DNA of 43,132 nucleotides from Desulfovulcanus ferrireducens (GTDB lineage Bacteria > Desulfobacterota > Desulfovibrionia > Desulfovibrionales > Desulfonatronovibrionaceae). Shown piece after piece: positions 23,760-43,132 of the stretch. The notes under the pieces were generated by a model. That model saw nothing but the letters and a program-made list of their open reading frames with translations. It did no database searches and was not told where the DNA came from. Position 1 is the stretch's first letter. Every line of letters starts with the position of its first letter. Made by a program: the position numbers and the translations under genes. The stretch is taken from contig NZ_JAGUQP010000026.1 in the NCBI RefSeq assembly GCF_018704065.1, positions 1 through 43,132 of the forward strand, given 5' to 3'.

Positions 23760-25685
23760 ATGTTGAATACCTTTTTTATCTCCACACCTATTTATTATGT
23801 TAATGCCAAGCCCCACCTGGGGCATGCTTATACGACCATTGTTGCTGACAGTGTAAACAGGTTCCATAAATTACAGGGTAAAGAGACCTACTTTTTAACC
23901 GGGACAGATGAACACGGTGACAAAATAGTCCAGGCTGCGGAGAAGAACAAACAAACTCCCAAAGAGTATGTGGATATAATCAGCAAACTCTTCAAAGACA
24001 CCTGGCCTGGGCTGGAGATAGAATATAATCGGTTTATCCGGACTACCGATCCTGATCATATTGCCTGCGTGCAGACTTTTCTGCAACGTGTCTATGACAA
24101 CGGAGACATTTATTTTGGCGAATATGGCGGCTTTTATTGTTTTGGCTGCGAACGTTTTTACACGGAAAAGGAACTTCAGGATGGTCTTTGCCCAGACCAC
24201 CAAACCAAACCGGAATTTATCCAGGAGAAGAATTATTTCTTCCGGATGAGTAAATATCTAAAACCCCTTAGAGAATATATTGAAAGCCATCCCGATTTTA
24301 TTCAGCCCGAACGCTACCGCAATGAAGTCCTGGGCTTACTTAAAGAGGATCTGGGAGATCTATGTATTTCCAGGCCAAAATCCCGCCTTACCTGGGGTAT
24401 TGAACTGCCCTTTGACAAAAACTTTGTTACTTACGTCTGGTTTGACGCCCTGATTAACTATATCACCGCCCTGGGATGGCCAGACGGAGAAAATTTTCAG
24501 AAATTCTGGCCTAATGCCCACCATCTGGTGGCCAAAGATATTTTAAAACCCCATGCTATTTTTTGGCCTACCATGCTCATGGCCGCAGGCGTTGATCTGT
24601 ATAAAGGTTTGCGCGTCCACGGCTATTGGACGGTCAATGAAACCAAGATGTCCAAAAGCCTGGGCAATGTAGTCTCTCCAATGTCCATGAAGGACAAATA
24701 CGGGCTTTCCGCTTTTCGCTACTTCTTACTCAGGGAAATGCAATTCGGTCTGGATGCCAGCTTTTCTGAAGAGGCACTGGTTGGACGCTTAAATGCCGAT
24801 CTTGCCAATGACCTGGGCAACCTGTTCAGCCGGGTTCTGACCATGACTAATAAATACTTTGCCGGTGAGGTTCCAGAACCGGGTAGCCTGGAAAAGATTG
24901 ACGAGGATGCGCTGGAGCTTGGCTTTAATGCCCTCAAAAATTACCAGGATCTTTTTCCAAAGTTTCAATTTTCCAAGGCATTAAGCAGCCTGTGGGAGCT
25001 AGTCCGTCATTTAAACAAATATATTGATACCTGTGCGCCCTGGAGCCTGTATAAAAATAAAGAAACCGAGCGGTTAAAAACCGTGATCTATATTCTCCTG
25101 GAAGGAATGCGTAAAATCGGGCTGCACTTGTGGCCGGTTATGCCTTCTACCAGTATTAAAATGCTCTCGCAACTGGGAGTGGATTTTGATTTACAAAAAG
25201 TAAACCTGGACCAGGAGACCAAGCAATGGGGAGGTTTGAAACCAGGCATTAAAGTAGCAAAAAAATCTAACCTGTTTCCACGCCGCGAACTAAAGCTGGA
25301 AAAATCTTGTGAGACTAAAACAGAGGCCCAAAAAGTTCGAAAAAGCCAAAAAGAAAAGAACTATATCGAATTTGAAGACTTTGTGAAGGTGGAACTAAAA
25401 GTAGGCAAAGTGGTCAAGGCCCAAAAAGTTCCCAAAGCCGATAAGCTATTGCAGGTTTTTGTGGATTTAGGGGAAAATGAACCACGACAGGTTGTAGCCG
25501 GTCTTGCTGAATACTATGAACCGGATGAGCTTATAGGTAAACAAGTCGTTGTAGTTGCCAACTTGAAGCCACGCAAATTAAGAGGCGTACTCTCCCAGGG
25601 AATGATTCTGGCTGTGCAGGCAAAAGGAAAAATGGAACTGCTAACGGTCAGTGGGGAAGTAAAACCGGGAAGCAAAGTTTCGTAG
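23760..25685 (+). CDS. metG: Methionyl-tRNA synthetase
   Basis: The 641-residue class I synthetase has the HIGH-like motif HLGHAYTT near residue 20, a single zinc knuckle pair (CFGCERFY and GLCPDH near 128-150), KMSKSLGN near 297, an anticodon-binding helical domain and a C-terminal EMAPII/Trbp111-type tRNA-binding domain (about 540-641) that promotes dimer formation. GGGAGG precedes ATG. A palindromic element begins two bases after its stop codon, so the 3' end of the transcript is formed by that repeat. Confidence 0.98.
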   Translation: MLNTFFISTPIYYVNAKPHLGHAYTTIVADSVNRFHKLQGKETYFLTGTDEHGDKIVQAAEKNKQTPKEYVDIISKLFKDTWPGLEIEYNRFIRTTDPDHIACVQTFLQRVYDNGDIYFGEYGGFYCFGCERFYTEKELQDGLCPDHQTKPEFIQEKNYFFRMSKYLKPLREYIESHPDFIQPERYRNEVLGLLKEDLGDLCISRPKSRLTWGIELPFDKNFVTYVWFDALINYITALGWPDGENFQKFWPNAHHLVAKDILKPHAIFWPTMLMAAGVDLYKGLRVHGYWTVNETKMSKSLGNVVSPMSMKDKYGLSAFRYFLLREMQFGLDASFSEEALVGRLNADLANDLGNLFSRVLTMTNKYFAGEVPEPGSLEKIDEDALELGFNALKNYQDLFPKFQFSKALSSLWELVRHLNKYIDTCAPWSLYKNKETERLKTVIYILLEGMRKIGLHLWPVMPSTSIKMLSQLGVDFDLQKVNLDQETKQWGGLKPGIKVAKKSNLFPRRELKLEKSCETKTEAQKVRKSQKEKNYIEFEDFVKVELKVGKVVKAQKVPKADKLLQVFVDLGENEPRQVVAGLAEYYEPDELIGKQVVVVANLKPRKLRGVLSQGMILAVQAKGKMELLTVSGEVKPGSKVS

Positions 25686-25686
25686 C

Positions 25687-25917
25687 CCTAAATTGAGCGA
25701 TTCTTTTGCGGTTTAAAGTTTGAGATTTTTTTATGACATTGCGAGGAGGGTTGAGATTACGATGTTTGAGATTGCTTCGCTCCACTTCGTTCCGCTCGCA
25801 ATGACAGGGGCGAGCATATTGTCATTGTGAGGGCAGCGAAGCTGCCCGTGGCAATCTCACCCATTGGGTGAGAATAGCTGGCTCTAAATCTACTTGTATT
25901 CCAATGTGTTTGAACAT
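25687..25917 (-). repeat. Palindromic MITE-like element, copy 1
   Basis: It starts CCTAAATTGAGCGATT two bases after the metG stop codon. It contains the core (GAGATTGCTTCGCTCCACTT ... GGCAGCGAAGCTGCCCGTGG ... CACCCATTGGGTG) and ends with the long-arm segment that in other copies reads GATTTTRAGCCAGCGATTTTC on the opposite strand. The outer end is worn away near 25917. The core is a pair of imperfect palindromes able to form a cruciform or a stable RNA hairpin. Confidence 0.85.
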
Positions 25918-26073
25918 CTGGGCAGGAATTTGAACATTTGGGAAGAAAAAAGTTGAGTGATAAAATAGCTGGAAGCATGAAAACTGCACTAAATGAAATC
26001 CCTGGGAGCAAGTTTCCAGTTTAAGACTTTTTGGGGATTTCATTAAAGAGGCAAGAACAATCTTTGCAAAAAA

Positions 26074-27552
26074 TTACAGAAATTTAATCCCAAAATCAGA
26101 AATAGTAACATTTTGGGTTTTACCTCTAGTACTCTGAGTCCAGCCAAAAATAATATAATCCATGTTAGAAATGGTCACGCTATCTTGAATAGTCGGCGTT
26201 GTGCCATTGTAAGAACTGGTCAAGTCGCTACAATCAATACAATCAACCCACGCCCTGAGCTGAAAATCTCCTGATGTAGCATTACGATCTACCTCCAAAC
26301 GAAACGTATGCTCCATAGCATCTTCTAGCCAAGTCACCTGCGTTGTATTATAGTAACCTAAATCACCATATTCATTATTTTTTGGGTCGCCCTTATCTGG
26401 ATCTCCCGCACCATGTGTCACATCATCATCAACATCTTCAACAAGCTTTTTTTTGCGTTTTTTCTCGTATTTTTCTCCCCAGTACATAAGAGATACATGA
26501 TTGTATGGGGAATAATCATTAAAACCTCCATCTGGATATGTATCAACCTCTACAGCCATTTTTGGGTAACGAACAGGCTCTGTAACTCCATTATCTCCGG
26601 CATAACCTAAATAGCCTTTATCCTTGCCGCAAACAGTGCAATCATTGTTTGCTGCGGAAATTAGCGCAAATGTAAAACCATCAGCAAAATCTTTGCTGCT
26701 AAGACTTGAATCAATATCGGCAAATCTGAACTTAAAAAATACTCGTACACCATTTCCAAAAGTACAATTCCCATTGTTACAGGGACCAGAATCTCCGGAA
26801 TACCAGTAACAACCGTAAGCATTTCTATACCCATTACCCAAATTTATAGTCTTATTTTCTTGAACGACCGTTATACTTTGTTTTTTACGGGGATAAATTG
26901 CTGCGCCTTGCACAAAATCATCCATGTTTTGCGCAAAAGAAATGTCAGCTCCCAGGGGTCCACTTTCAGAACCAGATGCAGAAGTACATATTTTTTGTTT
27001 TAAGTAACCTAGGGTCACGTATTCAACAATATCGTCATAAGGCTCTGGTCTATCTACATCCTCTGGATAGTCGTCCACCTTCTGGCCATATTCGTAAATA
27101 GTTACATCATCGGTATTATTGCCCAACTGCAAATTAAAATTCTCCCCCTTACTGGCAATGACAAAGGCAACATTATCCCTTGTATCTGATCCTAGAATTA
27201 CGCTTAATGTAGAATTATCTTGCGAACATATACTATCGTCGGCAAGCAAGTTACTAGCTGGCCTGTAAAAGAGCGTCCCTTTTCCAAAGATTTCCTCACC
27301 GTGTCCGATTTGATCCGGAGAAGAAGGCAGCTTGCCATTCATCACTGCATATCCCACAATCTCATCCCTGGCTATCCGAACCAACCGCCTGGCATTTGTT
27401 AACCTATCTCTTTTTATACTTTTTACTATCGCCGGCACGATCATGCTCGCAATCAGGCCAATAATGACGATAATAATGGCCATCTCCACAAGGGTAAAAC
27501 CCCTTTTTGTTGAGTGGTTAAGTGGCTGAGTGGGGGAGTGGTAAACTCTCAT
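26074..27552 (-). CDS. Type IV prepilin with C-terminal L-type-lectin-like domain (candidate pilus adhesin)
   Basis: The 492-residue protein has a prepilin leader cut after Gly18 (TKRG/FTLVEMAI) and the pilin helix (19-45). A pilin-like region runs to about 200 and a beta-rich C-terminal domain from about 215 to 492. That domain has the marks of legume/L-type lectins in order: DGFTFAL 291-297, GYLGYAG 313-319, AVEVDTYPD 333-341 with N345, D346, N351 and H352 as candidate metal and sugar ligands, HTFRLEVDR 415-423, and a C-terminal FGWTQSTRG ... ISDFGI strand pair. Several cysteine pairs (CTVC, CIDC) suggest disulfides. The leader is long because it is coded by an octamer repeat; AGAGGA five bases before ATG supports this start. 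The lectin call is by eye; the prepilin call is firm. Confidence 0.85.
   Translation of the reverse strand: MRVYHSPTQPLNHSTKRGFTLVEMAIIIVIIGLIASMIVPAIVKSIKRDRLTNARRLVRIARDEIVGYAVMNGKLPSSPDQIGHGEEIFGKGTLFYRPASNLLADDSICSQDNSTLSVILGSDTRDNVAFVIASKGENFNLQLGNNTDDVTIYEYGQKVDDYPEDVDRPEPYDDIVEYVTLGYLKQKICTSASGSESGPLGADISFAQNMDDFVQGAAIYPRKKQSITVVQENKTINLGNGYRNAYGCYWYSGDSGPCNNGNCTFGNGVRVFFKFRFADIDSSLSSKDFADGFTFALISAANNDCTVCGKDKGYLGYAGDNGVTEPVRYPKMAVEVDTYPDGGFNDYSPYNHVSLMYWGEKYEKKRKKKLVEDVDDDVTHGAGDPDKGDPKNNEYGDLGYYNTTQVTWLEDAMEHTFRLEVDRNATSGDFQLRAWVDCIDCSDLTSSYNGTTPTIQDSVTISNMDYIIFGWTQSTRGKTQNVTISDFGIKFL
27512..27543 (-). repeat. Octamer array translated as the prepilin leader
   Basis: Read on the minus strand the units are TACCACTC, CCCCACTC, AGCCACTT and AACCACTC, the same period-8 pattern as at 10085-10124. 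It encodes most of the leader peptide of the lectin prepilin. Confidence 0.7.
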
Positions 27553-27604
27553 ATTTTCCTCTTCTTTCGTAAAGATGAGTTGAGTGAAGAAATATTGACA
27601 TATA

Positions 27605-27783
27605 CCTAAGTTGAGCGATTCTTAATTTAATTTTACATTAAACACATTGAGGTAAAAGTAAATTTTGAGCCAGGCTATTCTCTACCCATTGGTTAAGATT
27701 GCCACGGGCAGCTTCGCTCCCCTCGCAATGTCAATCTCGCCCATGTCATTGCGAGCGGAACGAAGTGGAGCGAAGCAATCTCC
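27605..27783 (+). repeat. Palindromic MITE-like element, copy 2 (left of the GIY-YIG gene)
   Basis: It begins CCTAAGTTGAGCGATT, continues with the AATTTAATTTTACATTAA long arm and reaches the core (AGATTGCCACGGGCAGCTTC ... GAGCGAAGCAATCTC). The core overlaps the last 30 or so codons of the GIY-YIG gene, which reads through it on the opposite strand. Confidence 0.88.
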
Positions 27784-28080
27784 TAGTACCAACCCACTGA
27801 GAGATCCTTCCACCCTTTTATTTTCCTTCTCAATCAAGGCTATCTTCTTCGCCCTAGAACCTGACTTTATCTGCTTCTCCCGAGCAATAGCTAAATTTAT
27901 ATCCTCATAAAACTCATAATAAACCAGCTTGTTGATACTATACCTTGCTGTAAAAGAGTTTGGCTTTACCTTGTTCTTATGCTCGCAAACCCTCCGTTGC
28001 AAATCATTACAAATCCCAGTGTATAAAACCGTGTTATTTTTATTGGTCATTATATAAACATAATAGTTGTGCTCTCTCAT
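27682..28080 (-). CDS. GIY-YIG nuclease, C-terminus encoded by the repeat
   Basis: The 132-residue protein has a complete small GIY-YIG domain (about residues 5-95): YYVYIM for GIY, LYTGI for YIG, Arg in NDLQRR, His in CEHK, the KLVYYE strand and the glutamate helix AIAREKQIK. Such proteins (YhbQ/UPF0213 type) cut DNA; many are single-domain and of unknown role. From about residue 100 (GDCFAPLRSARND) the sequence is translated palindromic repeat, so the original stop codon was probably lost or replaced. ATG at 28080 is preferred to GTG at 28104; neither has a strong ribosome site. Matching repeat cores lie on both sides (27690-27783 and 28142-28276). Confidence 0.88.
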   Translation of the reverse strand: MREHNYYVYIMTNKNNTVLYTGICNDLQRRVCEHKNKVKPNSFTARYSINKLVYYEFYEDINLAIAREKQIKSGSRAKKIALIEKENKRVEGSLSGLVLGDCFAPLRSARNDMGEIDIARGAKLPVAILTNG

Positions 28081-28141
28081 AAAAAACAATTTTTCTTGGT
28101 TCACGGTAAAATGTCAACGATGAAAAATCTTTCCCTCAATG

Positions 28142-28276
28142 CTTGAGATTGCCACGGGCAGCTTCGCTGCCCTCGCAATGACAATCTCGCCCATGTCATT
28201 GCGAGCGAAACGAAGTGGAGCGAAGCAATCTCAAACTTGGTAATCTCAACCCTCCTCGCAATGTCATAAAAAAATC
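28142..28276 (+). repeat. Palindromic MITE-like element, copy 3 (right of the GIY-YIG gene)
   Basis: The core has the same orientation as copy 2, followed by the extra half-unit (AATCTCAACCCTCCTCGCAA, then TGTCATAAAAAAATCTCAA) that is also in copy 1. The outer terminal repeat is missing; the element stops at the stop codon of the next prepilin gene (28277). Confidence 0.88.
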
Positions 28277-28936
28277 TCAATCAAAAAGGGCTTGCAATTC
28301 CGAAGCAGTAACGATTAATGCCAGGTCATCATAACTTGCATCATCAGGATGATAAAAATTGGGTGGGTTGTCAGGATCTAATGCCGCAGCCAGTGTATCA
28401 GAGCTTACAAATCTGTCCCCATAAGAAGAATCATCTGCCTGGCCGTTTTTCCCAAAACTAATAAGGATAAATGCCACGCCGGTGCGTTCCTTATTGTGGA
28501 CATCAATAACTTTGGAGTCTGGGCTGATTGTAGCCCTTGCCTGGTCCTGGGCCAGGTTTGCTATGACATAGTCACTGCTCTGACTCAAGCCATCTCCGCC
28601 CTGCTCAAGTCCCTCTAAGAATCTGAGCCGATTTCCCCAGGCATCTTTTATGCCACACAGGCAAACATCAACATCTTTGGTTTGATCTACACTGGAACAA
28701 TCAGGTGCAGGTGTATAATCTGGATATTTATTGGTATAAGCAATTCGCCTGAACAAACAATCCTTGGCCTGATTCAATGCCGAACGCGTTGCTGCAATTT
28801 TGCGGGCCTGCATCAAGGAGGTCCAAGACAAAACACCACCACCAATAAGCAGACCAACTATAACCAAAACCAAGGCTAATTCCACAAGAGTGAAACCATT
28901 TTTTACGGTTCTATTTAGCCTGGATACTATCAACAT
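28277..28936 (-). CDS. Type IV prepilin-like protein (minor pilin)
   Basis: The 219-residue protein has the prepilin site VKNG/FTLVELALVLVIVGLL (cut after about residue 14) and the usual N-terminal helix. The globular part has five cysteines (one near 64, DCSS, CLCG) and an acidic C-terminal half (ALDPDNPPNFYHPDDASYDD). It is larger than the probable major pilin and lies after that gene's terminator, so it is likely a lower-abundance minor pilin or pseudopilin. The stop codon touches a palindromic element. Confidence 0.88.
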   Translation of the reverse strand: MLIVSRLNRTVKNGFTLVELALVLVIVGLLIGGGVLSWTSLMQARKIAATRSALNQAKDCLFRRIAYTNKYPDYTPAPDCSSVDQTKDVDVCLCGIKDAWGNRLRFLEGLEQGGDGLSQSSDYVIANLAQDQARATISPDSKVIDVHNKERTGVAFILISFGKNGQADDSSYGDRFVSSDTLAAALDPDNPPNFYHPDDASYDDLALIVTASELQALFD

Positions 28937-28983
28937 AACAAGCCTGTAATATTATCGCTTATTTCTTTTCCGTAAGACAAACA

Positions 28984-29018
28984 AAAAAGCGGATGCTTAT
29001 AATTTGCATCCGCTTTTT
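28984..29018 (-). terminator. Terminator after the probable major pilin
   Basis: AAAAAGCGGATGC (28984-28996) pairs with GCATCCGCTTTTT (29006-29018), nine-base loop. Read on the minus strand it ends in a T-run. It separates major pilin expression from the two downstream prepilins. Confidence 0.9.
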
Positions 29019-29201
29019 ATAATTAGATATTTTTTACTCATCGTTCAAAGTATAAGAGAGCTAAAGAAAGCTCTTTGGTATCATTGGCTACGTACATCGA
29101 TCTAACTACTACGCCAATGCTTAGTCCATAGACAATTTTTAAAACCCAGGGTCCTACTCAGTTCTGCAAGCGGGACTAAGCTTATAGCGACCCTACCACT
29201 T

Positions 29202-29777
29202 CTAAAACCGAATAAAGGTGTTACCTATCGAACCACTTGCTGGGACGTAGTCCTCACTGGCCACTACAGAACCGGTATTATAAACACCATCGTCTAGTTT
29301 GGTGTCGATTTCCAAAGCCACATCCCAGGGCAAATTGTCTAGGCGAAACCAATGGTCTGTAATGCCGCCAGCAGGAGTCTGCCAATACAATAAAATGAGA
29401 TCGCCAAAAGCATGCTTAGGGTAGCTATCGGTACCATCTCCATCGTAGCTTCCTGAAATCATACCCGCTTTTTGCAGGTCTTCGAAAAGCATATCGCTTT
29501 CACCAAATTCTATCTGACCGTCACCATCGCCATCATGTGTATCGCCATCAGGAAAATTTGCCGAATTTTCATCCCCTGGATACATACCATAGCGGTCATA
29601 AAATGTTAAGGTCGCAGCGCGAATAGAATCTACCGCCTTCATTACATTTTTGACCTTTGCTTCCTGAATGAGTGAACGGCCCTTGAGTACTCCTGCTATA
29701 AGCAAACCAACAATAACCAAAACAATGGCCAGTTCCACTAAAGTAAAACCTTCTTCTCTTTTAACTTCTTTTAACAT
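29202..29777 (-). CDS. Type IV prepilin, probable major MSHA-type pilin, with EF-hand-like loop
   Basis: The 191-residue prepilin has a short leader cut after Gly10 (KREEG/FTLVELAIVLVIVGLLIAG) and the FYDRYGMYPGDE strand typical of one prepilin group. At residues 82-93 it has a perfect EF-hand loop pattern, DGDGDGQIEFGE (D82, D84, D86, G87, I89, E93), and a second acidic run YDGDGTD at 111-117, so calcium binding is likely. A strong Shine-Dalgarno (GGAGGAGG), a sigma-54-type promoter of its own and a terminator right after it all argue for high, separately controlled expression, as expected of the main fibre subunit. No cysteines are present. Confidence 0.9.
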   Translation of the reverse strand: MLKEVKREEGFTLVELAIVLVIVGLLIAGVLKGRSLIQEAKVKNVMKAVDSIRAATLTFYDRYGMYPGDENSANFPDGDTHDGDGDGQIEFGESDMLFEDLQKAGMISGSYDGDGTDSYPKHAFGDLILLYWQTPAGGITDHWFRLDNLPWDVALEIDTKLDDGVYNTGSVVASEDYVPASGSIGNTFIRF

Positions 29778-29784
29778 AGAATTT

Positions 29785-29793
29785 CCTCCTCCT
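29785..29793 (-). promoter_or_regulatory. Strong Shine-Dalgarno of the pilin gene
   Basis: AGGAGGAGG ends eight bases before ATG at 29777, the strongest ribosome site in the pilus locus. Confidence 0.85.
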
Positions 29794-29850
29794 ACAAATT
29801 AAAATTTAGTTCAATAAATTTATTCATAATGACATACAAAAAAAACTTTA

Positions 29851-29865
29851 GCAAGCTTGTTGCCA
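29851..29865 (-). promoter_or_regulatory. Sigma-54 (-24/-12) promoter of the pilin gene
   Basis: The minus strand reads TGGCAACAAGCTTGC. It matches the RpoN consensus TGGCACGN4TTGC at all key bases (GG at -24, GC at -12) with exact spacing. Transcription should start near 29839, leaving a leader of about 60 bases. Type IV pilin genes are often driven by RpoN with PilS/PilR; those genes are not in the window. Confidence 0.8.
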
Positions 29866-30195
29866 AATAAAACTTAAGCCTGACGAAAATTACCCTCCCC
29901 GCATACACCAAGAAAAATATTTATTGTGTTCTCCCCGAAATGACAACTGCCAATAAAGTATTTTTTTTCAGCAAATTAGCCTATATACCGCCCTTTAACT
30001 TTCCGGCCTTTCTATTAGACTCACTAAACTCTCTCAACACGACCTTGTTTTTTGTTGTTTAAGACCTCGTTGGTAACATTTTATCCATAACACATGAGAC
30101 GATAGGATGACACTTAATTCTCGATACTCTCCTCAAGCAACCTATAAAATATCTTAATGCCCGACGTTTAACCTTTCGGTTTCGTGTCTTTTTGT

Positions 30196-30993
30196 TTAAC
30201 GTTCTTCGAATATTCTTTCCAGGCGCAACACACGCCTGTCTGTTGGATAGTTCTGAATCAATTTTGTATACTCCTGCTTGGCCAGCATAAACTTTCGCTG
30301 ACCTAGTAAAGAATAGATCAAGTTAACACGACAGACTATATCCCCACGATTTCTTATCAGGGCCTGACGAAAAAATTGTTCTGCCTCCTGAAACTTTTTT
30401 TTCTTTAAAGCCAGGACACCTTGCCATTTAAGTGTCAAAAAATTGTCAGGACCCAAAAGCTGATTTACCTGAGCCAGTAACCGGTTGAACTCTTCTTCAT
30501 CTCCTTTGTTCAAGGCCGATGCAAGCCGTGCATTGAGACTCAAGACTCTTTTATTGCGCTTAGCCTGAGCGAAAAAATGTTTTTCCAGGGCCAAAGTGGG
30601 TTTTTTAAATTCTTTAGGCAATACCTCTTCTTTTTTTGAGACCTTCTTTTTCAACTTATCCACAGAGGCAAGGGCGAAAATACTGCCCTTATCACCTCCA
30701 TTTTCTTCAACTCGAGATGTTGCGTTCTGACTTTGCGCCTTTACTGGCTCTGCCTTTTTGACCTTTGCCGTGGTCTTGCGTACCAAAGGCTTTTTTACCT
30801 CGGAAACTTGTTGAATCTCTCCTGCAGTCCAAAAAAAACCAACAAACAAAATAAAGCTGATTGCGAGAAGAAAAAAAAGTAGACGTGAGACAACCTCCCT
30901 GGGCTTGGGCATAGCGCCCACTGGCACCACCTTAGGTTGTCCTTGGACTTTCTGACGGCGAAGTTGTTGAAGGCTGCGGTAGATGAGACTCAC
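30196..30993 (-). CDS. MshN-like TPR protein of the pilus machine
   Basis: The 265-residue protein has the MshN-type start (MSLIYRSLQQLRRQK), one membrane helix at about 38-56, a basic linker (60-140) and a C-terminal TPR region (about 190-260). Topology suggests a periplasmic TPR domain that could contact the secretin. GTG start at 30993, one base after the mshL stop codon (TGACGTG), so translation is coupled. It is the last gene before the pilin promoter region. Naming rests on architecture and position. Confidence 0.8.
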   Translation of the reverse strand: MSLIYRSLQQLRRQKVQGQPKVVPVGAMPKPREVVSRLLFFLLAISFILFVGFFWTAGEIQQVSEVKKPLVRKTTAKVKKAEPVKAQSQNATSRVEENGGDKGSIFALASVDKLKKKVSKKEEVLPKEFKKPTLALEKHFFAQAKRNKRVLSLNARLASALNKGDEEEFNRLLAQVNQLLGPDNFLTLKWQGVLALKKKKFQEAEQFFRQALIRNRGDIVCRVNLIYSLLGQRKFMLAKQEYTKLIQNYPTDRRVLRLERIFEER

Positions 30994-30994
30994 G

Positions 30995-32584
30995 TCAAAT
31001 AATTCTAATCGTCATTATAATAACTAACTCACGGACCTGTTCAGTATAATTCTTACCTTTAAATAACCATCCCAGAACAGGAATACGCCCTAACCCGGGG
31101 ACTTCTTGATCTGTTTTACCAGTTGTCTTATCAATAAGCCCCCCCAGAATAATGGTGTCATTATTATGTACCTTTACGTTAGTACTTACATTTTTTATCT
31201 CAATCTTGGGCAAAGTGATTTTGCTTCCATCACCTGTTACATCGCGCAAAGTTAAACTATCAGGGTCAACCTGACTCTTGATAGGAAAAATTTGCAGGTC
31301 TGCTTCATTTTCATTATTTATAAAAGGAACAACTCCAAGCAATATCCCATCAAATACAGAGGCTACATCCACAGTATAAGTAACCTGACCATCTTCTTCC
31401 TGCCTGGTGACACTGCGCACATAGTTCTCAGATGTACCTGAAGTAAACAAAGCTGGCTGACCATGACGGGCGCGAACATGCGGGTTGGAAACAACCTTAA
31501 CATTACCAAAAGTTTGCAAAGCCTCTATGGTAGTACGCATCGTTGAGGTGCGGTCATGGCTACCAATGGCACTATCGGGTTTAGTAACCACGGTTAGTGG
31601 GATCGTGCCCGCGCCTGCCCCGGTCCACCCAACGTTTACAGAGTAAGCAGTTCCACTAATCAGCCTCTCGGCCACATAGTTCCAGTCAATACCAAAGCGA
31701 AAGTCATCTTTTAAACTAACTTCCAGAATCTGAGCGTCAATAATTATCTGTTTTTTCATTTTTTTCTTCAACTGGCGCAAAAAACGACTCACAGCATTCA
31801 TCTTTTGCGGGCTGGCGCGCACAACCAAAGTACCGGCCAAAGGGTCAAGCGTAAAATACTGGTCACCAGAGCTTGCGCCTGCAGTCGAAGAACCGGCAGA
31901 ACCACCACCTGCAAGGATGCTGGCTATTGAGGTCTGAACAAAACTGTACAAAGAACCATCTGCAATCCCCTTACCTAAAGAGGCCGTTACCTGAAACTTG
32001 CCTGCCATATTGGCACTACCTTCACCCAAGGCCGAACCGAATACATCCCCACCATTATCTATCTCAACAGCAGTCTGAACATTTAAAAAACCAAGGTCAA
32101 AAGCCCTCTCTTCAAATCTCTTTACAAAAAGCACGTTGTCCTTGATCTCCCACGCCAGATCATAAGCCTGCAAAAGTTTCTCCACCACAACTGAAGAGGG
32201 TGTATCCTCAAAAGAAAGCGTGACCTTGTTCTCCAAGCTAATCCCGGGCTCGATAACCAGGTTTAAGCCAGCATTGCGGGCAATCACATATAACACATCA
32301 TGCAATGGTTCATCTTTTACTGAAATAGAAACAGGGGTCTCCTCCAAAGGATTAAACCCCGGTATCTCCGGCTCAATAGGCACCTTTAAACGTGGAGTTG
32401 TCTTTTCTAGGTCGCCTTCCTTTTCTCTAACCCTGGCTAACGATTCTTGTTCAGCCTGGAGGGCCTTATATAGAGCATCATATCCAAGCTTGGGTTTAAG
32501 TCTGTCTTTTGGCGGGGCACAAGACAAACAAATACCCAAAGTCACAACTATCAAAAAAATAGTAAGGATTTTTCTTTTTATCAT
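30995..32584 (-). CDS. mshL: MSHA-type secretin MshL-like, outer-membrane channel
   Basis: The 529-residue protein has an N-terminal export signal with a cysteine near residue 22 (probable lipoprotein, though the lipobox is not ideal) and an STN/N0-like domain (VSISVKDEPLHDVLYVIARNAGLNLVIEPG). A secretin N domain and the C-terminal secretin domain follow (VVRASPQKMNAVSRFLRQL, then VPGLGRIPVLGWLFKGK near the end). A Gly/Ser/Ala-rich loop lies near residues 225-245. It forms the ring through which the pilus passes. Confidence 0.92.
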   Translation of the reverse strand: MIKRKILTIFLIVVTLGICLSCAPPKDRLKPKLGYDALYKALQAEQESLARVREKEGDLEKTTPRLKVPIEPEIPGFNPLEETPVSISVKDEPLHDVLYVIARNAGLNLVIEPGISLENKVTLSFEDTPSSVVVEKLLQAYDLAWEIKDNVLFVKRFEERAFDLGFLNVQTAVEIDNGGDVFGSALGEGSANMAGKFQVTASLGKGIADGSLYSFVQTSIASILAGGGSAGSSTAGASSGDQYFTLDPLAGTLVVRASPQKMNAVSRFLRQLKKKMKKQIIIDAQILEVSLKDDFRFGIDWNYVAERLISGTAYSVNVGWTGAGAGTIPLTVVTKPDSAIGSHDRTSTMRTTIEALQTFGNVKVVSNPHVRARHGQPALFTSGTSENYVRSVTRQEEDGQVTYTVDVASVFDGILLGVVPFINNENEADLQIFPIKSQVDPDSLTLRDVTGDGSKITLPKIEIKNVSTNVKVHNNDTIILGGLIDKTTGKTDQEVPGLGRIPVLGWLFKGKNYTEQVRELVIIMTIRII

Positions 32585-32618
32585 CTTCTTTTTTCAATTT
32601 ATTGGTTTATTTTAGATT

Positions 32619-32840
32619 CCTAAGTTGTACGATTTTTAATTTAATTTTACATTAACCACATCGGAATAAAAGCAGATGTTGAGCAAGCGATTTTCACCCA
32701 AAGGATGAGATTGCCGCTGGCAGCTTCGCTGCCCTCGCAATGACAATATGCTCGCCCCTGTCATTGCGAGCGGAACAAAGTGGAGCGAAGCAATCTCAAG
32801 CCTGACAATCTCAATTCTTCTCGCAATGACAATGTAAAAC
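32619..32840 (+). repeat. Palindromic MITE-like element, copy 4
   Basis: It starts CCTAAGTTGTACGATTTTT with the long arm, then the full core, and ends in the extra half-unit. It fills most of the 365-base gap between the MshK-like gene and mshL. The outer right terminal repeat is not recognisable. Confidence 0.85.
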
Positions 32841-32949
32841 TCTATATTAGCAACCTATTCAACAATTTATTATCGAACATTGGCTGCAAAAATAAGTTTT
32901 TTTCAGGCGCTTATTTTCATATCAAGCTTAATAAGATAGCTATCACAAA

Positions 32950-33594
32950 TCACTTTTTCTGCAACTGTTTTAAAAGTTTTAATGCCTGCTCAGGCGATAA
33001 AAGTTGTTCTTTTGTTTGATTTGCATTCAATGTAGTTAGGGGTTCATCAGTTTGCATCTGGTTTGTAACAGGGTGAGATGTCGTGGATGATCGAGTGACA
33101 ACATTCTGCGATTGTGCCGGTACAACTTTTTTTAACTCTACTTTTAATGGCGGTATCCATGGCACAATATACGTCTGCTTTCTTATATCTTGCAAATGAA
33201 CACCATCCTGGTCAATAAGAGCAACCTTTCTTCCATCAGGCAATATGTCGCCAATTGTATAAAACTCACCATTTATAACAGCAAATTTTTTACTCTCTCC
33301 CAGAAAAATCAATTGCACCTCAAGGGGGCCAAGCCGTTCTAATGGGTCCACAATGAGCTCAGATAATAGCCGAGGAAAACTCTCCTCCAACCGCAAATTA
33401 ATCAACTCAGCAGCCTGATAAATCAAATTCTGGTCGCTCTCAGGGGGCAATATGTCCACATGCTGCTCTACTTTTAGCTTCACTGGTAGAACTGAAACAT
33501 TGGTTATCTTTTGAATAGACCAAAACAAAACTAAACCGGAAATTAAAATAACCAGCAAAAGACGAATGATACTTTGAATACGTAAGGGATGCAT
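32950..33594 (-). CDS. MshK/PilP/GspB-like inner-membrane protein
   Basis: The 214-residue protein has one N-terminal membrane anchor (about 11-28) and a periplasmic domain. The FAVINGEFYTIGDILPDGRKVALIDQDGVHL stretch (about 104-135) matches the small beta domain of GspB/MshK/PilP proteins, which link the inner-membrane assembly to the secretin. The tail (150-214) is Thr/Ser/Gln-rich and ends with a helix. No clear ribosome site. Its neighbours are secretin and PilN-like genes, with repeat elements in both gaps. Confidence 0.75.
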   Translation of the reverse strand: MHPLRIQSIIRLLLVILISGLVLFWSIQKITNVSVLPVKLKVEQHVDILPPESDQNLIYQAAELINLRLEESFPRLLSELIVDPLERLGPLEVQLIFLGESKKFAVINGEFYTIGDILPDGRKVALIDQDGVHLQDIRKQTYIVPWIPPLKVELKKVVPAQSQNVVTRSSTTSHPVTNQMQTDEPLTTLNANQTKEQLLSPEQALKLLKQLQKK

Positions 33595-33607
33595 ATTTTA
33601 TTACTAT

Positions 33608-33682
33608 GTGCTTAACTTGTACAATTGATTTGATATTTAACCTTTGAGACTGTAGAGCGCTAACGCGCCTCGCAATGACAAA
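33608..33682 (+). repeat. Fragment of the palindromic element, copy 5
   Basis: It holds a worn terminal repeat (CTTAACTTGTACAATTGATTT) and a short piece of core (TTTGAGACTGTAGAGCGCTA, then GCGCCTCGCAATGACA), in the gap between the PilN-like and MshK-like genes. Confidence 0.6.
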
Positions 33683-33718
33683 GTAAGATTTCAAACGATT
33701 GACGTAACTTTGTAAAAA

Positions 33719-35527
33719 TCACAAGCTGTGTAATAAGGTTAACGCAAAAAAGTTATTCTCCAGGCTTAAGTCAATATCTTTACGTAATATCTTATATCCA
33801 GCTTCCTCAAGCATAGCTAAATACTTGGTAAAAACAGACTGAGCTTGAATCAGGTCAGCATCTATTGTCCCTTCCAAGCGCACCTGAACGCCATCTTTAA
33901 TATATTTTATTTCTAAAGCTTCAATTCGACATACTCGAGGCTTTAACTTAGCAAGGCCATTCCATATTTCTATTAATTTAGGAGACAGGGTAGCATCTTT
34001 GATATTTTGGGCCAATTCTCTTAACCTGCTTAAATCCTCTTTACTGTATCTTTGCAGCTTCTGCAAAGGCTCTTGCAATTCTTTGATATCCTTAACAAGC
34101 TCTTGAGCCTGCTGCTCTAGCTGAGAAATTTCCAGCTCCACTTGTTTATTTGTCTTGTCGAATAAAATTGCACTAGCACCAAAAGACAGGCTCAACCCCA
34201 GCATAGCGGCCCAAACCCATTTTTCAATCTTTTCCAAACCAAGGGCCCATATCTCATTTTTAGGCCCAAAACAGGCTTTTTTAGAAACATGACGCACCGC
34301 GCCGGGCAAACTAGACCAAACCTTACGCCCGTCTAGCTCAAGAATATAAAGTGGCCACCTATAAAAAGAAACTCCCTGGGGCAGGATCTGCGGCCAGACA
34401 GGATTATCAGCCAAACCCTCAAGCCACTCGATCTGTTCAATATCTTCTCCTCCAGACTGTGTTAACAGATCCTGCACACAGGCAAAAATTCCCTCTTGCA
34501 AAGCGTGTTCATCATCTCCAGCCAATGCATAACGCCTGGCCCAAAAAACTCGTCCTCTACGTCCAGCAAGAAGCAAAATGGCTTCCGGAATATGCAGAGC
34601 CAGAGCCACCGCCTTTTTTCTTTTCAAACCTAAAAAAAGACCATAGAGTAGCCCCAAGGTATCGAAAAGCAGATATCCCTGCCTCGTTTTTGTCGCCTTA
34701 TCCAGGAGATTATAATGTTTCTCGCGGGGTAAAAGTTGATATAGAAATTCTGTTCGTGACTTGGAAATTTTTCGCCTGGTCACAAAATGAAGTTCATATT
34801 CATCAGTAAGTTCACCCTGTTCCTGCAATTTTTTTCTAGCCAGGATATGGGCATATTTAGGCTGACCATCAATGGTCAAAATTCCCATCTCAGGTGCCAA
34901 ATAATAATCCACAAAATAAAGCAGATGCTTATTGTATTTATCAATATCAACATCTTGAGCTACAACATTGCCAGAAAACAGATACAATCCGCTTTCCAAA
35001 TCGAGAACAAAATCAGGATAAGAAGTATGTTCAGCGATGTTCCACCCCTGAGTCAGTAGGATATCATCTTGAAGCTGCTTACTTTCTTCAAACTGACTCC
35101 GTTCCCAACCAGGGCCGGTTTCAGTCCAGGCTGACCAAGGTTGCGGAGACTGAGCAGGAGAAGATCCTTCGTCCGGACTTGAACCAAGAGGTAACGTCTC
35201 AACTGTTTCAGTTACTGTTGATGCTGTTTCTTTATCATCCTCTTTAATCTCTTGCCCGTTTTCCTGCCCCTCTCCTGGCTCTAGAGCTGGCTTTGAATTT
35301 TTCTTGTCAGGTTCTTGACTCTCCGGAAAAAAAAATTCAACTGCCGGCTCTTCTAGATCCGGCAGTTGCTCTGGAATATCATCATCCAGACTAACTTCAG
35401 GGATAGAACCCTTGTCCTCACTATAGGCAGAGGAATTAGCCCTTTTATCTGTCGACTCTGAAAACAGCTCTTCCTGCTGCTCCAATTCAGAAACTTTTTT
35501 TTGGGGCTTTTTTGTGTTATCAGACAT
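33719..35527 (-). CDS. MshI/PilN-like assembly protein with long acidic N-terminal region
   Basis: The 602-residue protein has three parts. Residues 1 to about 145 are acidic, rich in Glu, Ser, Pro and Gln and probably disordered. Residues about 150-395 form a folded cytoplasmic domain that may be a diverged PilM/GspL-type actin-like fold. After one membrane helix (about 400-420) come a coiled coil (SQLEQQAQELVKDIKELQEPLQKL) and a C-terminal PilN-type ferredoxin-like domain. This order fits an MshI/GspL-type protein joining the cytoplasmic ATPase level to the periplasm. The acidic extension is unusual. Confidence 0.75.
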   Translation of the reverse strand: MSDNTKKPQKKVSELEQQEELFSESTDKRANSSAYSEDKGSIPEVSLDDDIPEQLPDLEEPAVEFFFPESQEPDKKNSKPALEPGEGQENGQEIKEDDKETASTVTETVETLPLGSSPDEGSSPAQSPQPWSAWTETGPGWERSQFEESKQLQDDILLTQGWNIAEHTSYPDFVLDLESGLYLFSGNVVAQDVDIDKYNKHLLYFVDYYLAPEMGILTIDGQPKYAHILARKKLQEQGELTDEYELHFVTRRKISKSRTEFLYQLLPREKHYNLLDKATKTRQGYLLFDTLGLLYGLFLGLKRKKAVALALHIPEAILLLAGRRGRVFWARRYALAGDDEHALQEGIFACVQDLLTQSGGEDIEQIEWLEGLADNPVWPQILPQGVSFYRWPLYILELDGRKVWSSLPGAVRHVSKKACFGPKNEIWALGLEKIEKWVWAAMLGLSLSFGASAILFDKTNKQVELEISQLEQQAQELVKDIKELQEPLQKLQRYSKEDLSRLRELAQNIKDATLSPKLIEIWNGLAKLKPRVCRIEALEIKYIKDGVQVRLEGTIDADLIQAQSVFTKYLAMLEEAGYKILRKDIDLSLENNFFALTLLHSL

Positions 35528-35627
35528 TACTTTATATTTCGTAACTTATGTTGAGTTTCCCATCTATCCAACCGAGCTCACTGCAAAAATTTACTTTCTG
35601 CAGACACACCCTTCTCGTGTATTTCGT

Positions 35628-35844
35628 GGTTAAGTTGAGCGATTTTTAATTTAGTTTACTTAAACATATTGGAATAAAAATAGATTTTAAGCCAGCGATT
35701 TTCACCCAATGGGTGAGATTGCCACGGGCAGCTTCGCTGCCTCGCAATGACATAACGATCATCCTGTCATTGCGAGGAGCGAGCGTGAGCGAAACGACGA
35801 AGCAATCTCTAGCTTTAAACAGCAAAAAAATCGCTTAACTTAGG
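35628..35844 (+). repeat. Palindromic MITE-like element, copy 6 (best preserved ends)
   Basis: Left end TTAAGTTGAGCGATTTTTAA and right end AAAAAAATCGCTTAACTTAG are inverted copies; long arm and full core lie between. The 8-mer TCGTGGTT occurs at 35624-35631 and 35846-35853, bracketing the element like a target duplication, though its left copy overlaps the end by a few bases. Confidence 0.88.
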
Positions 35845-35865
35845 GTCGTGGTTGAAATGTGGCAA

Positions 35866-36381
35866 TCATTGAAACATCCTTTTTCTCATCAAAAATTGCC
35901 CCTTTAATTTAATTTGATACATATCTTTCTCAGAATCAGTAACTTGTGCACGCAAATGCTGATCATTTGCTTTTTGTTTTGAAGCTGCAATTTTTATGAG
36001 CACAAAGAGTTCTGGTTTGAACCAATAGTCTTGCGGATAAGGACGGCCGCGTGAAACCAAATACACGAGTCCCTCCACTTGGGCCCAAGAAAGCTTCTGG
36101 TCAATATCTAATGGGTAAAGCAACCAATTATCCGCATCTAACCCTGCGGCATGAACTCGACTTAATATCTGCTTCCATCGCCTGACCTTTTGCGGGTTTG
36201 ATTGAATTCTATGTAATTCAGTCTGCAACTTGCTGAGCTCACGCTCAACTTGTGCTCTTTTCTGCAAATTAGCCTTAAACCGACTATAAGTTTGAGCAAA
36301 AAAAATGCTCGCTCCTGCCAATGCCAAAGTAAGCACAATGCCAGTCGCCCAACTGATTATCTGACGTGTTTCAACTTTCAT
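35866..36381 (-). CDS. PilO/MshJ-like assembly protein
   Basis: The 171-residue protein has one membrane helix (about 11-29), a coiled-coil segment (FKANLQKRAQVERELSKLQTELHRI) and a small C-terminal domain. That is the layout of PilO/GspM/MshJ proteins, which pair with the PilN-like partner encoded next. No sequence motif is decisive, so the name comes from topology and its place between mshG and the PilN-like gene. The gap to mshG is 35 bases. Confidence 0.7.
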   Translation of the reverse strand: MKVETRQIISWATGIVLTLALAGASIFFAQTYSRFKANLQKRAQVERELSKLQTELHRIQSNPQKVRRWKQILSRVHAAGLDADNWLLYPLDIDQKLSWAQVEGLVYLVSRGRPYPQDYWFKPELFVLIKIAASKQKANDQHLRAQVTDSEKDMYQIKLKGQFLMRKRMFQ

Positions 36382-36416
36382 CTTTCTATTTCAGCCTCTT
36401 AGGACTTATATAAGCC

Positions 36417-37643
36417 CTAACTAATACCACTAATCAAGTCATAGATAGGCAGGAGCAGGCCGGCAATGATCATAGCAAACAAAATACCTACAAAAACTAA
36501 CAGGGCCGGTTCCAGGGTCTTTCCCAAAACCTCTACAAGGGCATCTAATTTCTGCCGATAGACTCTCGCAATATATTCTGTTTGCTCCTCAATACGTCCA
36601 GTTTGCTCCCCAACCGTAATCATCCTCAGTGCAAAAGGATGCATGGCTTGAGTCTGACGCAATGCCTCGGATAAAGTTACTCCCCCTTTAATGGCGTCTT
36701 TTACCTGATTTAACCTTTTTTTATACACTTCATTACTAATGGAATCAATAATTATCTCTAAAGCACGCAAAACCCCAATTCCAGCACCAATAAGAATGCC
36801 CAAAAACTCACTCACTCTGGCCACCAAAGAAATTGTCAGGATATTGGACAAGAGAGGCAAATGCAATAGGACGTTATCGCTAAAATAGCGAAAATTATAA
36901 GACATGCGACGCACAATCATAACTCCAGCGGCTACAAAGGCCACAATAAAAACTGCCATGCCAAAATAATTCTGAAACAAATCAGAAATATAAATTAAAA
37001 TACGTGTCGGCAAAGGCAGAGCAACCCCCATTTCTTTAAAAAGGGAAACCAGTTTGGGAACTACATACCAGAACCAGAATATAACTGCTCCTACTACCAT
37101 CACGGAGAGAAACGCTGGGTACATCAATGCTCGTTTAGTCCCGCTAATAATTTCATGCAAATGCTGAATATGCTCGGAACATTTTTTGAGCATTTTATCC
37201 AAATTTCCTGTTTCCTCACCAATACGGATCATATGCAGAAGCACGGGAGAGAATATACGTCTATGTTTTTCAATTGCCTCGCCAAAAGTTTGACCACTCT
37301 CTATATCTGTACAAATGAGTCTTATGGTTAGTTTTAGAAAAGGATTTTCAGCGTCACCTTCCAATTCTTCCAAAGCAGATAAAATCGGGACTCCTGCCGA
37401 AAGAAGCATGGACAGGTTGTTGAAAAATTCGGCCAGCACAGGACGCTTAACATTGAGCAATCCACCTTTTATCGCGCGCATCAAAAAAGAAATAGTATCA
37501 GGTATTCGAGTGACCTCTAAAACAACACTACCGCGTCGTTCAAGATAGCGAAGAGCTGCACCAGGATCATCAAATGGCAATTCGACAAAACCGGTTTCTA
37601 CTTCTCCTTGGGGTGTAAGCAGCTTGAATCTGAAGGTAGACAT
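36417..37643 (-). CDS. mshG: Inner-membrane platform protein MshG/GspF-like
   Basis: The 408-residue protein has two repeated T2SF domains (about 68-190 and 270-395), each with the conserved FFNNLSMLLSAGVPILSALE-type or FLGILIGAGIGVLRALE motif, and three membrane helices. It is the inner-membrane platform on which the ATPase acts to add pilin. It follows mshE in order but lies 470 bases away because a composite repeat element fills the gap, so it may depend on a second promoter or on read-through. Confidence 0.95.
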   Translation of the reverse strand: MSTFRFKLLTPQGEVETGFVELPFDDPGAALRYLERRGSVVLEVTRIPDTISFLMRAIKGGLLNVKRPVLAEFFNNLSMLLSAGVPILSALEELEGDAENPFLKLTIRLICTDIESGQTFGEAIEKHRRIFSPVLLHMIRIGEETGNLDKMLKKCSEHIQHLHEIISGTKRALMYPAFLSVMVVGAVIFWFWYVVPKLVSLFKEMGVALPLPTRILIYISDLFQNYFGMAVFIVAFVAAGVMIVRRMSYNFRYFSDNVLLHLPLLSNILTISLVARVSEFLGILIGAGIGVLRALEIIIDSISNEVYKKRLNQVKDAIKGGVTLSEALRQTQAMHPFALRMITVGEQTGRIEEQTEYIARVYRQKLDALVEVLGKTLEPALLVFVGILFAMIIAGLLLPIYDLISGIS

Positions 37644-37735
37644 AATTTTTCAAATCATCCTTAAATTCGTAATCCATCAAAGATTATCGCCTGAATTTCC
37701 TTCACCATTACTTTATACCGCCTCACCCACTACTA

Positions 37736-38111
37736 CCTAAATTGAACAATTTTTTCTAACTGCTTAAATTTATTGCTAACTGGTGACTGGATCCTTTTGC
37801 GAAACAAAAGTGCCTGCTCCCAGAAACAGAAAGGCTCGAACAACTAATTTAGCTGATGCAAAAACGCTCAATTTAGAAAATACATTTTCATGCACGGGGG
37901 GGGGACAAAATCTCTTGTCATTGACGTTTAGGAAAGTAAAAGTAAATTTTTCGCCAGCGATTTTCACCCAATAGATGAGATTCCACGGGCAGCGAAGCTG
38001 CCCTCGCAATGACAATTCGTTCACCCCCTGTCATTACGAGGAGCGAGCGTGAGCGAAGCGACGAAGCAATCTCAAAGTTTTTTAAGTTGCAAAAAAATCG
38101 CACAAAGTAGG
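37736..38111 (+). repeat. Composite palindromic element, copy 7
   Basis: The outer ends are CCTAAATTGAACAATTTTTT (37736) and AAAAAAATCGCACAAAGTAG ending at 38111, two bases past the mshE stop codon. The core at about 37960-38075 is normal. The left part is an extra segment (37736-37876) that itself ends in AAAAACGCTCAATTTAG and so looks like a complete small element joined to a second one. A run of nine G lies at 37896-37904. Confidence 0.8.
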
Positions 38112-41540: not shown

Positions 41541-42269
41541 ATGAACATAGTTTTACCATTGGCCTTAATCACCTTTTTTGCCGGCTTCACCCAAGGACTG
41601 TCCGGATTTGGCTCTATCCTGGTTTCTTTACCTCTCCTGGCCCTGTTTCTGGACATAAAAACGGTCATCCCGTTAATCAGCCTTTTTGCCTTGGTCATCA
41701 ATACCATCATTATTTACAAGATGCACAAACATCTGCGTTGGAAAGACCTCTACCCTCTACTTTTAGCCACTATTTTTGGTATCCCCACGGGAGTGTATAT
41801 CCTAAAAATAGTATCACCGCAGATTTTACAGGTTGCATTGGGGGTTATGCTGATCCTCTTTGCCGGCTATGCCCTGTTTATACAGCTACCTCAAAAACGT
41901 CTTTCATCCGAGTGGGCTTGGCTGACAGGCTTCACTGCCGGGTGCCTGGGAGGCAGTCTTGGTGCAAATGGACCTCCCATAATCATTTATACCGCTATTC
42001 AACCCTGGACCAAAGATAAAATAAAGTCCACTCTGGCTGGATATTTTTTTGTAGCCGGTATAGGCATCTCCTCCACACATGCCCTAACCGGATTGATCAC
42101 TCCCCTGGTCCTAAAACTTTTTTTTCTTGGAATAATTTTTCTCATCATGGGAGTGATGACAGGAATGTCCTGCTATAAACGCCTTAGTGAACAAAAATAT
42201 CGCCAATTTATTAGTGTGCTCATACTCATCTTAGGGCTAGTTATGCTGAGTAAGGGAGTGACCAGTTAA
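41541..42269 (+). CDS. TauE/SafE-family membrane transporter
   Basis: The 242-residue integral membrane protein has about seven or eight helices. It has the two-repeat pattern of TauE/SafE proteins: the first FFAGFTQGLSGFGSILVSLPLL (about 10-31), the second GFTAGCLGGSLGANGPPIIIY (about 131-151). Members export sulfite, sulfonates or related organic anions; in a likely sulfate reducer a sulfur anion is a fair guess, but the substrate cannot be read from sequence. It is transcribed away from the pilus operon and stands alone, with repeats downstream. Confidence 0.9.
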   Translation: MNIVLPLALITFFAGFTQGLSGFGSILVSLPLLALFLDIKTVIPLISLFALVINTIIIYKMHKHLRWKDLYPLLLATIFGIPTGVYILKIVSPQILQVALGVMLILFAGYALFIQLPQKRLSSEWAWLTGFTAGCLGGSLGANGPPIIIYTAIQPWTKDKIKSTLAGYFFVAGIGISSTHALTGLITPLVLKLFFLGIIFLIMGVMTGMSCYKRLSEQKYRQFISVLILILGLVMLSKGVTS

Positions 42270-42339
42270 ATCACAGCCACGTCAAAAGTTGATGTTATGC
42301 CATAACCCCTTAAGAGCCTGTGCCCAAATCCCATTTAAA

Positions 42340-42720
42340 CCGCTGATTGAAGGTCCTGGTTTCTGAAATGCATTACAAACGGCTTGGGTAACCCAATCTT
42401 AGTGAAGCTTGCGGATAAGCAGAGCATCGGGATGACAAAGCTAATATCCGGGACTACTTGCCATGACTATCTATAGTTTAAATTTAACGATTTTTTTGCA
42501 GTTCAAACTTTGAGATTGCTTCGTCGCCTCGCTCACGCTCGCTCCTCGCAATGACAGGAGCGAGTTCGTCATTGCGAGGGCAGCGAAGCTGTCCGTGACA
42601 ATCTCACCCATTGAGTGAAAATCGCTCAACTTAGGCATAATAAAAGAATATTTATTTGTCCAAAATGTCCCTTTATGCTCTGTCCGCAAGCAAGTTTTGA
42701 GAACATGTCCAAGTCTTTGT
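42340..42720 (-). repeat. Older copy of the long repeat, interrupted by a MITE-like element
   Basis: CTGAAATGCATTACAAACGG at about 42363-42382, then CTTGCGGATAAGCAGAGCAT, match one arm of the long repeat. TATGCTCTGTCCGCAAGCAA and TGTCCAAGTCTTTGTTCCAG (about 42674-42725) match the other. Between them sits palindromic element copy 8. The orientation is the same as the right end copy, which starts 50 bases further on. Confidence 0.8.
42476..42635 (-). repeat. Palindromic MITE-like element, copy 8 (short form)
   Basis: The full short element runs from TTTAAATTTAACGATTTTTTT on the left to GAAAATCGCTCAACTTAGG on the right. The core lies between, with no long arm. It sits in the central loop of the older long-repeat copy. 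Confidence 0.88.
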
Positions 42721-42770
42721 TCCAGCATGAAAGAAACCAAGACTGGAATGAACTATGGAAATTAAGTTAA

Positions 42771-43132
42771 TAACTCAACTTTCTGACACGATTAACATCC
42801 TCAAATTACTACACAATTGAAGAGTGCATTTTCTGAAATGCATTACAAACGGGTTGGGTAACACATCTTGGCGAAGATTGCGGATGTGCTGTGCATAGGG
42901 AGGTTATTCCATCGAACTTTCGAAACCCATCATAACAACAGAAAAGGCATTAAGTAACATTCTATTGACTAACCCCATTATGCACAGCCCGCAAGCAAGC
43001 CTTAGATGTGTCCAAGTCTTTGTCAGCATTGAAGAAAATGCGCTCGCAAATTAACTCAGCAACTGTGTTTTTTGTCAATAGTTAATGGTTAAAATTTATT
43101 GGTTAGTTTATTTTGTTTTCAAGAACAATTTT
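42771..43132 (-). repeat. Long repeat, right copy of the terminal inverted pair
   Basis: The inverse of 1-362. It keeps the inner palindrome intact (GCTGTGCATA 42888-42897, TATGCACAGC 42979-42988), where the left copy has one change. The gene-free region 42270-43132 is thus almost entirely repeats. Confidence 0.92.

Follow-up and report, generated by a model that had tools for sequence, protein, structure and literature searches.

Ordered stacks of palindromes in a MITE-like repeat family of Desulfovulcanus ferrireducens, with a centre exchanged between copies

A small palindromic element, here designated D4, lies in the centre of a longer repeat near one end of contig NZ_JAGUQP010000026.1 of Desulfovulcanus ferrireducens. 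This composite is likely one copy of a MITE-like non-autonomous transposon of stacked palindromes, which D4 entered once, in an ancestral copy, and whose centre has since been exchanged. D1 (~100 bp, with GAGYCTGTGGCCAAACC ends) holds D2 in its middle, D2 holds D3, and D3 holds D4 at its exact midpoint. The D1 ends would be recognised by a transposase supplied in trans. D4 inserted into one ancestral long copy, and the composite then moved as a unit; the later exchange of its centre may have come about by template switching or gene conversion, possibly at the tip of the folded palindrome. The stretch of DNA analysed (the window, 43,132 nucleotides) is the whole of this contig, C26 in a 2.59-Mb genome of 60 contigs, among which six short ones (C55-C60) read N.

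The long element including its D4 insert occupies positions 42314-42773 of the window, beginning after a TTAA (42310-42313) and stopping where another element, B, starts. This TTAA is presumed to be the left copy of a 4-bp target duplication by analogy with other members of the family, and the right copy is absent from the window, where the right end has been lost. The left half of the long element (42314-42471, + strand, 158 bp) opens with the 17-bp left terminal inverted repeat of D1 (42314-42330, + strand), which has two mismatches to the consensus GAGYCTGTGGCCAAACC, and comprises a D1 arm, a D2 arm (TTTCTGAAATGCATTACAAACGG, from about 42360) and a D3 arm beginning CTTGCGGATAAGCAGAGCATCGGG. 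D4 (42476-42635, + strand, 160 bp) has the outer arms GTTTAAATTTAACGATTTTT and AAAATCGCTCAACTTAGG and an inner hairpin (CTCGCAATGACA ... GTCATTGCGAG), and is preceded by TATA (42472-42475), its left flank duplicate. The right half (42636-42773, + strand, 138 bp) starts with CATA (42636-42639), an altered TATA, and lacks the right D1 terminal repeat, element B having removed this outer end. In its long form (42774-43132, + strand, terminal repeat CTCAACTTTCTGA), B sits in the right D1 arm, has D2 and D3 modules in its middle and runs off the contig; a second long-form B at the opposite contig end (1-369, - strand) is 98% complementary to 42764-43132. The region is bordered by this contig-end repeat on one side and, on the other, by a gene at 41541-42269 whose product we take to be TauE-like (NCBIfam gave no match). 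Several further intergenic D4-type palindromes, some with additional inner or outer segments, are present at 25684-38080.

The segment 42340-42720 retrieved at least 52 matching pieces from the genome (40 of 266 candidates were scored) and no Rfam match at the gathering threshold. Identity to the six best uninterrupted copies is 82-86% for the left half of the element and 85-89% for the right half. Among 30 uninterrupted copies, 24 gave an alignment of 120 columns or more with the left half, and 28 gave one of 90 columns or more with the right half. The split point was located in 26 full-length copies without the insert: its mean distance from the midpoint is 0.7 bp, 25 of the 26 have it no more than 2.5 bp away, and the largest distance is 5 bp. 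The preliminary description, in which D4 was copy 8 of a palindromic element, had placed it in the centre of a single long-repeat unit within 42340-42720. These alignments bear out both the central nesting and the unity of the two sides, while the span given there is too short at both ends.

The terminal repeat GAGYCTGTGGCCAAACC occurs at 241 sites in the genome with at most two mismatches, against none for a reversed control. In contig C1 (262 kb), which was not selected for repeats, terminal-repeat pairs are spaced by about 100, 160, 315 or 475 bp. Alignment indicated that each of the corresponding size classes (~100, 160, 316 and 475 bp) consists of the preceding class plus palindromic sequence in its middle. 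A total of 60 distinct terminal-repeat pairs, representing all DNA fetched and a non-random sample outside C1 because the loci came from searches with these elements, were assigned to D1 only (7), D1+D2 (7), D1+D2+D3 (27, one with a further element Y and one with a false call of a palindrome X) and forms with D4 (19). The layers always follow the order D1, D2, D3, D4 from outermost to innermost; 0 of the 60 elements are out of order, and an inner layer is never present unless the outer ones are there too. The D2 and D3 modules in C1 always lie within a D1 or B wrapper, save at C1:250092, where the wrapper is not settled; their arrival as separate elements is therefore less certain than that of D4.

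Exact 4-bp direct repeats border the outer ends of 42 of the 60 elements, and 55 have such repeats when one mismatch is allowed. A partner-shuffled control gave a mean of 4.2 exact repeats and a maximum of 12 (5000 runs), and repeats of 3 bp (11/60) or 5 bp (2/60) are not favoured. The target duplication of D1 is thus 4 bp long, and it is AT-rich. By rising size class, exact duplications were found in 7/8, 3/6, 17/26, 11/15 and 4/5 elements. The D4-bearing class has 4-bp duplications of its own (11/15), which indicates that the composite travels with D4 inside. Predicted single-strand folds are hairpins, long in the larger classes, as computed for the elements themselves. The family thus combines terminal inverted repeats common to many dispersed copies with a constant 4-bp target duplication, both of which are features of MITEs. 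A transposase gene inside the elements is unlikely, judged from their length of 98-823 bp, and we read the D1 family as a non-autonomous bacterial MITE family of stacked palindromes. A search for an autonomous partner, which covered PF01609 with contigs C55-C60 reading N, identified three DDE_Tnp_1 genes, none of which has D1 or B ends.

The uninterrupted junction of the long element was found at 51 genome sites and the junction interrupted by D4 at 33, and the reversed control pattern gave 0 for both. The right junction was located in 29 of 32 interrupted copies, and in these the right flank is TATAATTAAAAG or a close variant. Most other copies have TATA on both sides of D4; the window has TATA and CATA. 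The orientation of D4 is identical in 33 of 33 interrupted copies, two of which had first been classed as 'other'. A scan of all fetched loci in either orientation yielded 31 D4 one way, 0 in reverse, 37 empty loci and 3 'other', two of these having the same orientation by eye. At position +1, all 29 empty copies have G, which no filled copy has, and 27 of 29 filled copies have T; at +7, A is found in 29/29 empty copies and T in 26/29 filled ones, the empty copies having been retrieved with a pattern that covers the flank and limits its variation to three mismatches. Some filled copies keep bases of the empty type, namely GACA up to D4 on the left (4 copies) or, in others, the bases from +7 on the right. 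A filled-type flank without D4 was not found, all 13 matches to its pattern being empty copies of the GATA/GACA type.

That every copy has D4 at the same junction and in the same orientation implies that it entered once, in an ancestral copy. This was a single founding insertion with a presumed TATA duplication. Since the midpoint position reflects one founding event, it counts only once against chance, at about 5/316 or roughly 2%. The D4 of the window copy differs from that of copy C14:64717 at 0.6% of sites, which makes this identically nested copy its close sister. Most likely, the window copy came already nested, and the nesting did not arise at this spot. The sole relative of the TauE-like neighbour in genome contigs is from a distant cyanobacterium. 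Of the earlier proposal, the order of events is supported, in that an uninterrupted long element exists and a separate D4 entered its centre; movement of D4 into a long element already settled at this place is not supported. Nesting of repeats seen at one locus need not document a local event.

The centre with D4 and about 15 bp beside it is swapped among copies with different arms. A tree of the arms was built from 59 rows, among them the window copy (L165), omitting 12-20 bases adjoining the junction; the filled copies L146, L147 and L158, whose right junction could not be located, and C27:6543, which has no locus, were left out. On this tree, the 29 filled rows do not form one clade (p-AU 2e-5), and the filled or empty state changes 15 times, against a mean of 20 for shuffled states. 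In the linkage analyses, from which the truncated row E_L130 was excluded, the r2 of D4 presence with single sites is 1.0 at +1, 0.87 at +7, 0.36 at +14 and 0.28 at -15, and low elsewhere. With 54 informative sites 25-130 bp away, D4 presence has a mean r2 of 0.0235, compared with 0.018 for permuted labels (95th percentile 0.0238), and so lies within the permuted range; when the test was run again with 500 permutations, p was 0.066, rising to 0.36 once seven aberrant rows, the window copy among them, had been removed. The arm sites among themselves, at the same distances, have a median r2 of 0.136, and their linkage declines with distance; 12 of the 78, however, show linkage to the arms no stronger than that of D4. 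Median divergence is 7% among the embedded D4 copies and 25% among the surrounding arms, the correlation between the two being 0.16. A single founding event and many changes on the tree are best reconciled by exchange between copies.

How the centre was exchanged is less certain. Ordinary homologous recombination among dispersed copies after the one insertion, in which the palindrome tip would play no particular part, is a serious candidate, though one to which we give somewhat less than an even chance. The arms are themselves mosaic, as left and right arm distances are uncorrelated (r = -0.05), and the decay of arm-site linkage with distance also agrees with this explanation. However, the linkage of D4 reaches background within about 15-20 bp, whereas arm sites remain linked over 40-120 bp, so that exchange seems denser at the centre. 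This sharp central fall favours repair of breaks at the tip over ordinary recombination. In E. coli, the hairpin nuclease SbcCD breaks palindromes, which are then repaired (PMC4245961, PMC3315005), and this system offers a way for a palindrome tip to become a point of recombination. In the cited accounts it was demonstrated for long near-perfect E. coli palindromes, whereas such a role in the D1 family would be by extension. A search for SbcD in the genome gave a single sub-threshold match, to a protein of 415 aa that has a metallophosphatase domain, and the lack of a clear SbcD gene argues against SbcCD as the enzyme of tip repair. Only tentatively, therefore, do we suggest that the tip may serve as a port of entry and exchange, at which breakage or template switching would let hairpins be copied in. 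Palindromes would then grow from inside, and the insert would spread by short conversion tracts (~15 bp of flank) in a homing-like manner without an endonuclease gene in the insert. If so, D4 would be moving into the members of a MITE family that had already diverged, by a route separate from transposition.

An alternative starting point is that the composite is original and the shorter classes are central deletions, given that long palindromes lose their centres. The D1-only and D1+D2 forms can indeed be derived, by eye, through deletion between the short direct repeats AGAAATC and ACCCA, and the D1+D2 copy C1:180913 keeps a scrap resembling D3 and looks like the deletion product of a D3-bearing copy. 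As a general account this is nevertheless improbable: the 51 empty sites have GATAATAAAAAG or a variant of it, with no D4 remnants and with different flank bases, the embedded D4 copies have diverged less than the arms, and D4 exists alone, in another genus as well. It is still harder to accept repeated, independent insertions of D4 into many copies, all at one hairpin tip and all in one orientation. The scatter of filled copies on the arm tree would suit such repeated entry, yet the filled copies have common substitutions at +1 and +7 that are missing from the empty ones, and 0 of 33 are in reverse orientation. Independent insertion is disfavoured by the flanks common to filled copies and by the pattern search, which found no D4-less copy with such a flank. 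Hardly credible at all is the local event of the preliminary description, in which D4 transposed into this already settled long copy in search of a palindrome tip: D4 does lie at the midpoint, is flanked by a 4-bp repeat and exists alone, but it was rejected for this site on account of the junction and orientation common to 33 copies, and the composite's own target duplications and the near-identical, identically nested D4 at C14:64717 speak against it as well.

The family has partial parallels in known systems. REP/BIME sequences with RAYT are not known to have a target duplication, as is the case for IS200/IS605-type enzymes, and the 4-bp duplications of the D1 family set it apart from them. 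Bacterial MITEs include Correia/NEMIS of Neisseria, QMITE1 of Coxiella and Chunjie of Geobacter (PMC10969869, PMC2229807). Like these, the D1 elements are short, repeated and hairpin-forming, with terminal inverted repeats, a target duplication and size variants; Correia elements, for example, occur as variants of 155 and 107 bp, with or without an internal segment (PMC10969869, PMC2229807). Unlike the MITEs covered there, the D1 family has four ordered classes, each with a palindrome added in the middle, and its innermost layer is a repeat family of its own. The two MITE reviews, in the portions cited, mention size variants, and the word 'nested' occurs in neither (PMC10969869, PMC2229807). 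A similar arrangement is known from Volvox carteri organelle DNA, where short palindromic repeats lie within palindromes and form larger composites, a few of them at several places (PMC2670323). The likeness, palindromes inserted in the middle of palindromes, is one of arrangement. Unlike the D1 family, the Volvox repeats belong to an algal organelle and have TAAA/TTTA loops, and the cited passages of PMC2670323 contain neither a unit of terminal repeats plus target duplication nor a linkage test. Among titles and abstracts, with partial coverage that leaves absence from print unproven, no stacked palindromic MITEs were described in bacteria, and none of the papers retrieved with the D4 core letters is, by title and abstract, about bacterial repeats. 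The ordered series of 100, 160, 316 and 475 bp, with empty and filled forms in tens of copies, is found in one bacterial genome. The growth and spread of palindromic repeats thus become testable, as the founding junction, the common flank and the loss of linkage within ~20 bp can be set against the predictions of tip-directed transposition, conversion and hairpin breakage.

Other insertions into the family were also observed. Element B is 295 bp long where it lies inside contigs, and 25 contig ends have a longer form of it whose copies all break off at one common base. Both ends of the window contig are of this longer form, which may be the autonomous element, broken by assembly. Its target duplications are exact over 8 bp in 3 of 9 copies and look like 6-7 bp in the rest. 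The palindrome X (TACCCCGTTGAATACTGGC...GGGGTA) occurs at the D2/D3 border, on one side only, in L019, L024, L026, L028, L142 and L143; these copies were accepted by eye, and L025, L029 and L118 were rejected as false matches of a loose pattern. Element Y, about 300 bp with ends near GAATCCGTGAAAGT, lies off centre in the outer D1 arm of L121, L142 and L143. Since X, Y and B lie off centre, insertions are not confined to the midpoint. A general preference for palindrome tips, which had been proposed from the nesting together with a likeness to insertion sequences that target REP sequences, is accordingly not borne out, as the midpoint position of D4 counts as one founding event. IS1397, ISKpn1 and IS621 insert in REP palindromes (PMC1525189), and the shared feature is that a mobile element enters a palindromic repeat. 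The likeness goes no further, since those elements, as the cited part of that source presents them, encode a transposase and are not 160-bp palindromes (PMC1525189), whereas D4 is a palindrome whose length leaves no room for a transposase gene and which is carried by its host element.

The layers differ in their distribution among relatives. The full composite is absent from all 60 relatives searched, six of which matched short pieces only. The D1 end GAGYCTGTGGCCAAACC is at control level in these 60 genomes, with 0 sites in the same-genus genome, and D1 was found in this genome only. The D4 motif GTCATTGCGAGG was counted 108 times in this genome and not once in the same-genus genome, which is 82% complete; four genomes from another genus of the family have 19-76 occurrences each. 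It is rare elsewhere in the order and present at least once in 21 of 61 genomes. D4 is also found by itself, outside the long element, here as well as in another genus of the family. Element B with D2 and D3 inside is likewise present in the same-genus genome, and a piece of B (the D2 arm and the B end) in a genome of another genus. With D1 confined to this genome and B with D2/D3 found elsewhere, D1+D2+D3 looks like a young wrapper round older modules. In the relatives (L201-L211), the GTCATTGCGAG hairpin carries other outer arms, and core and wrapper look exchangeable between species on this comparison of sequences. An X-like palindrome was also seen inside a GTCATTGCGAG hairpin of one relative (L211).
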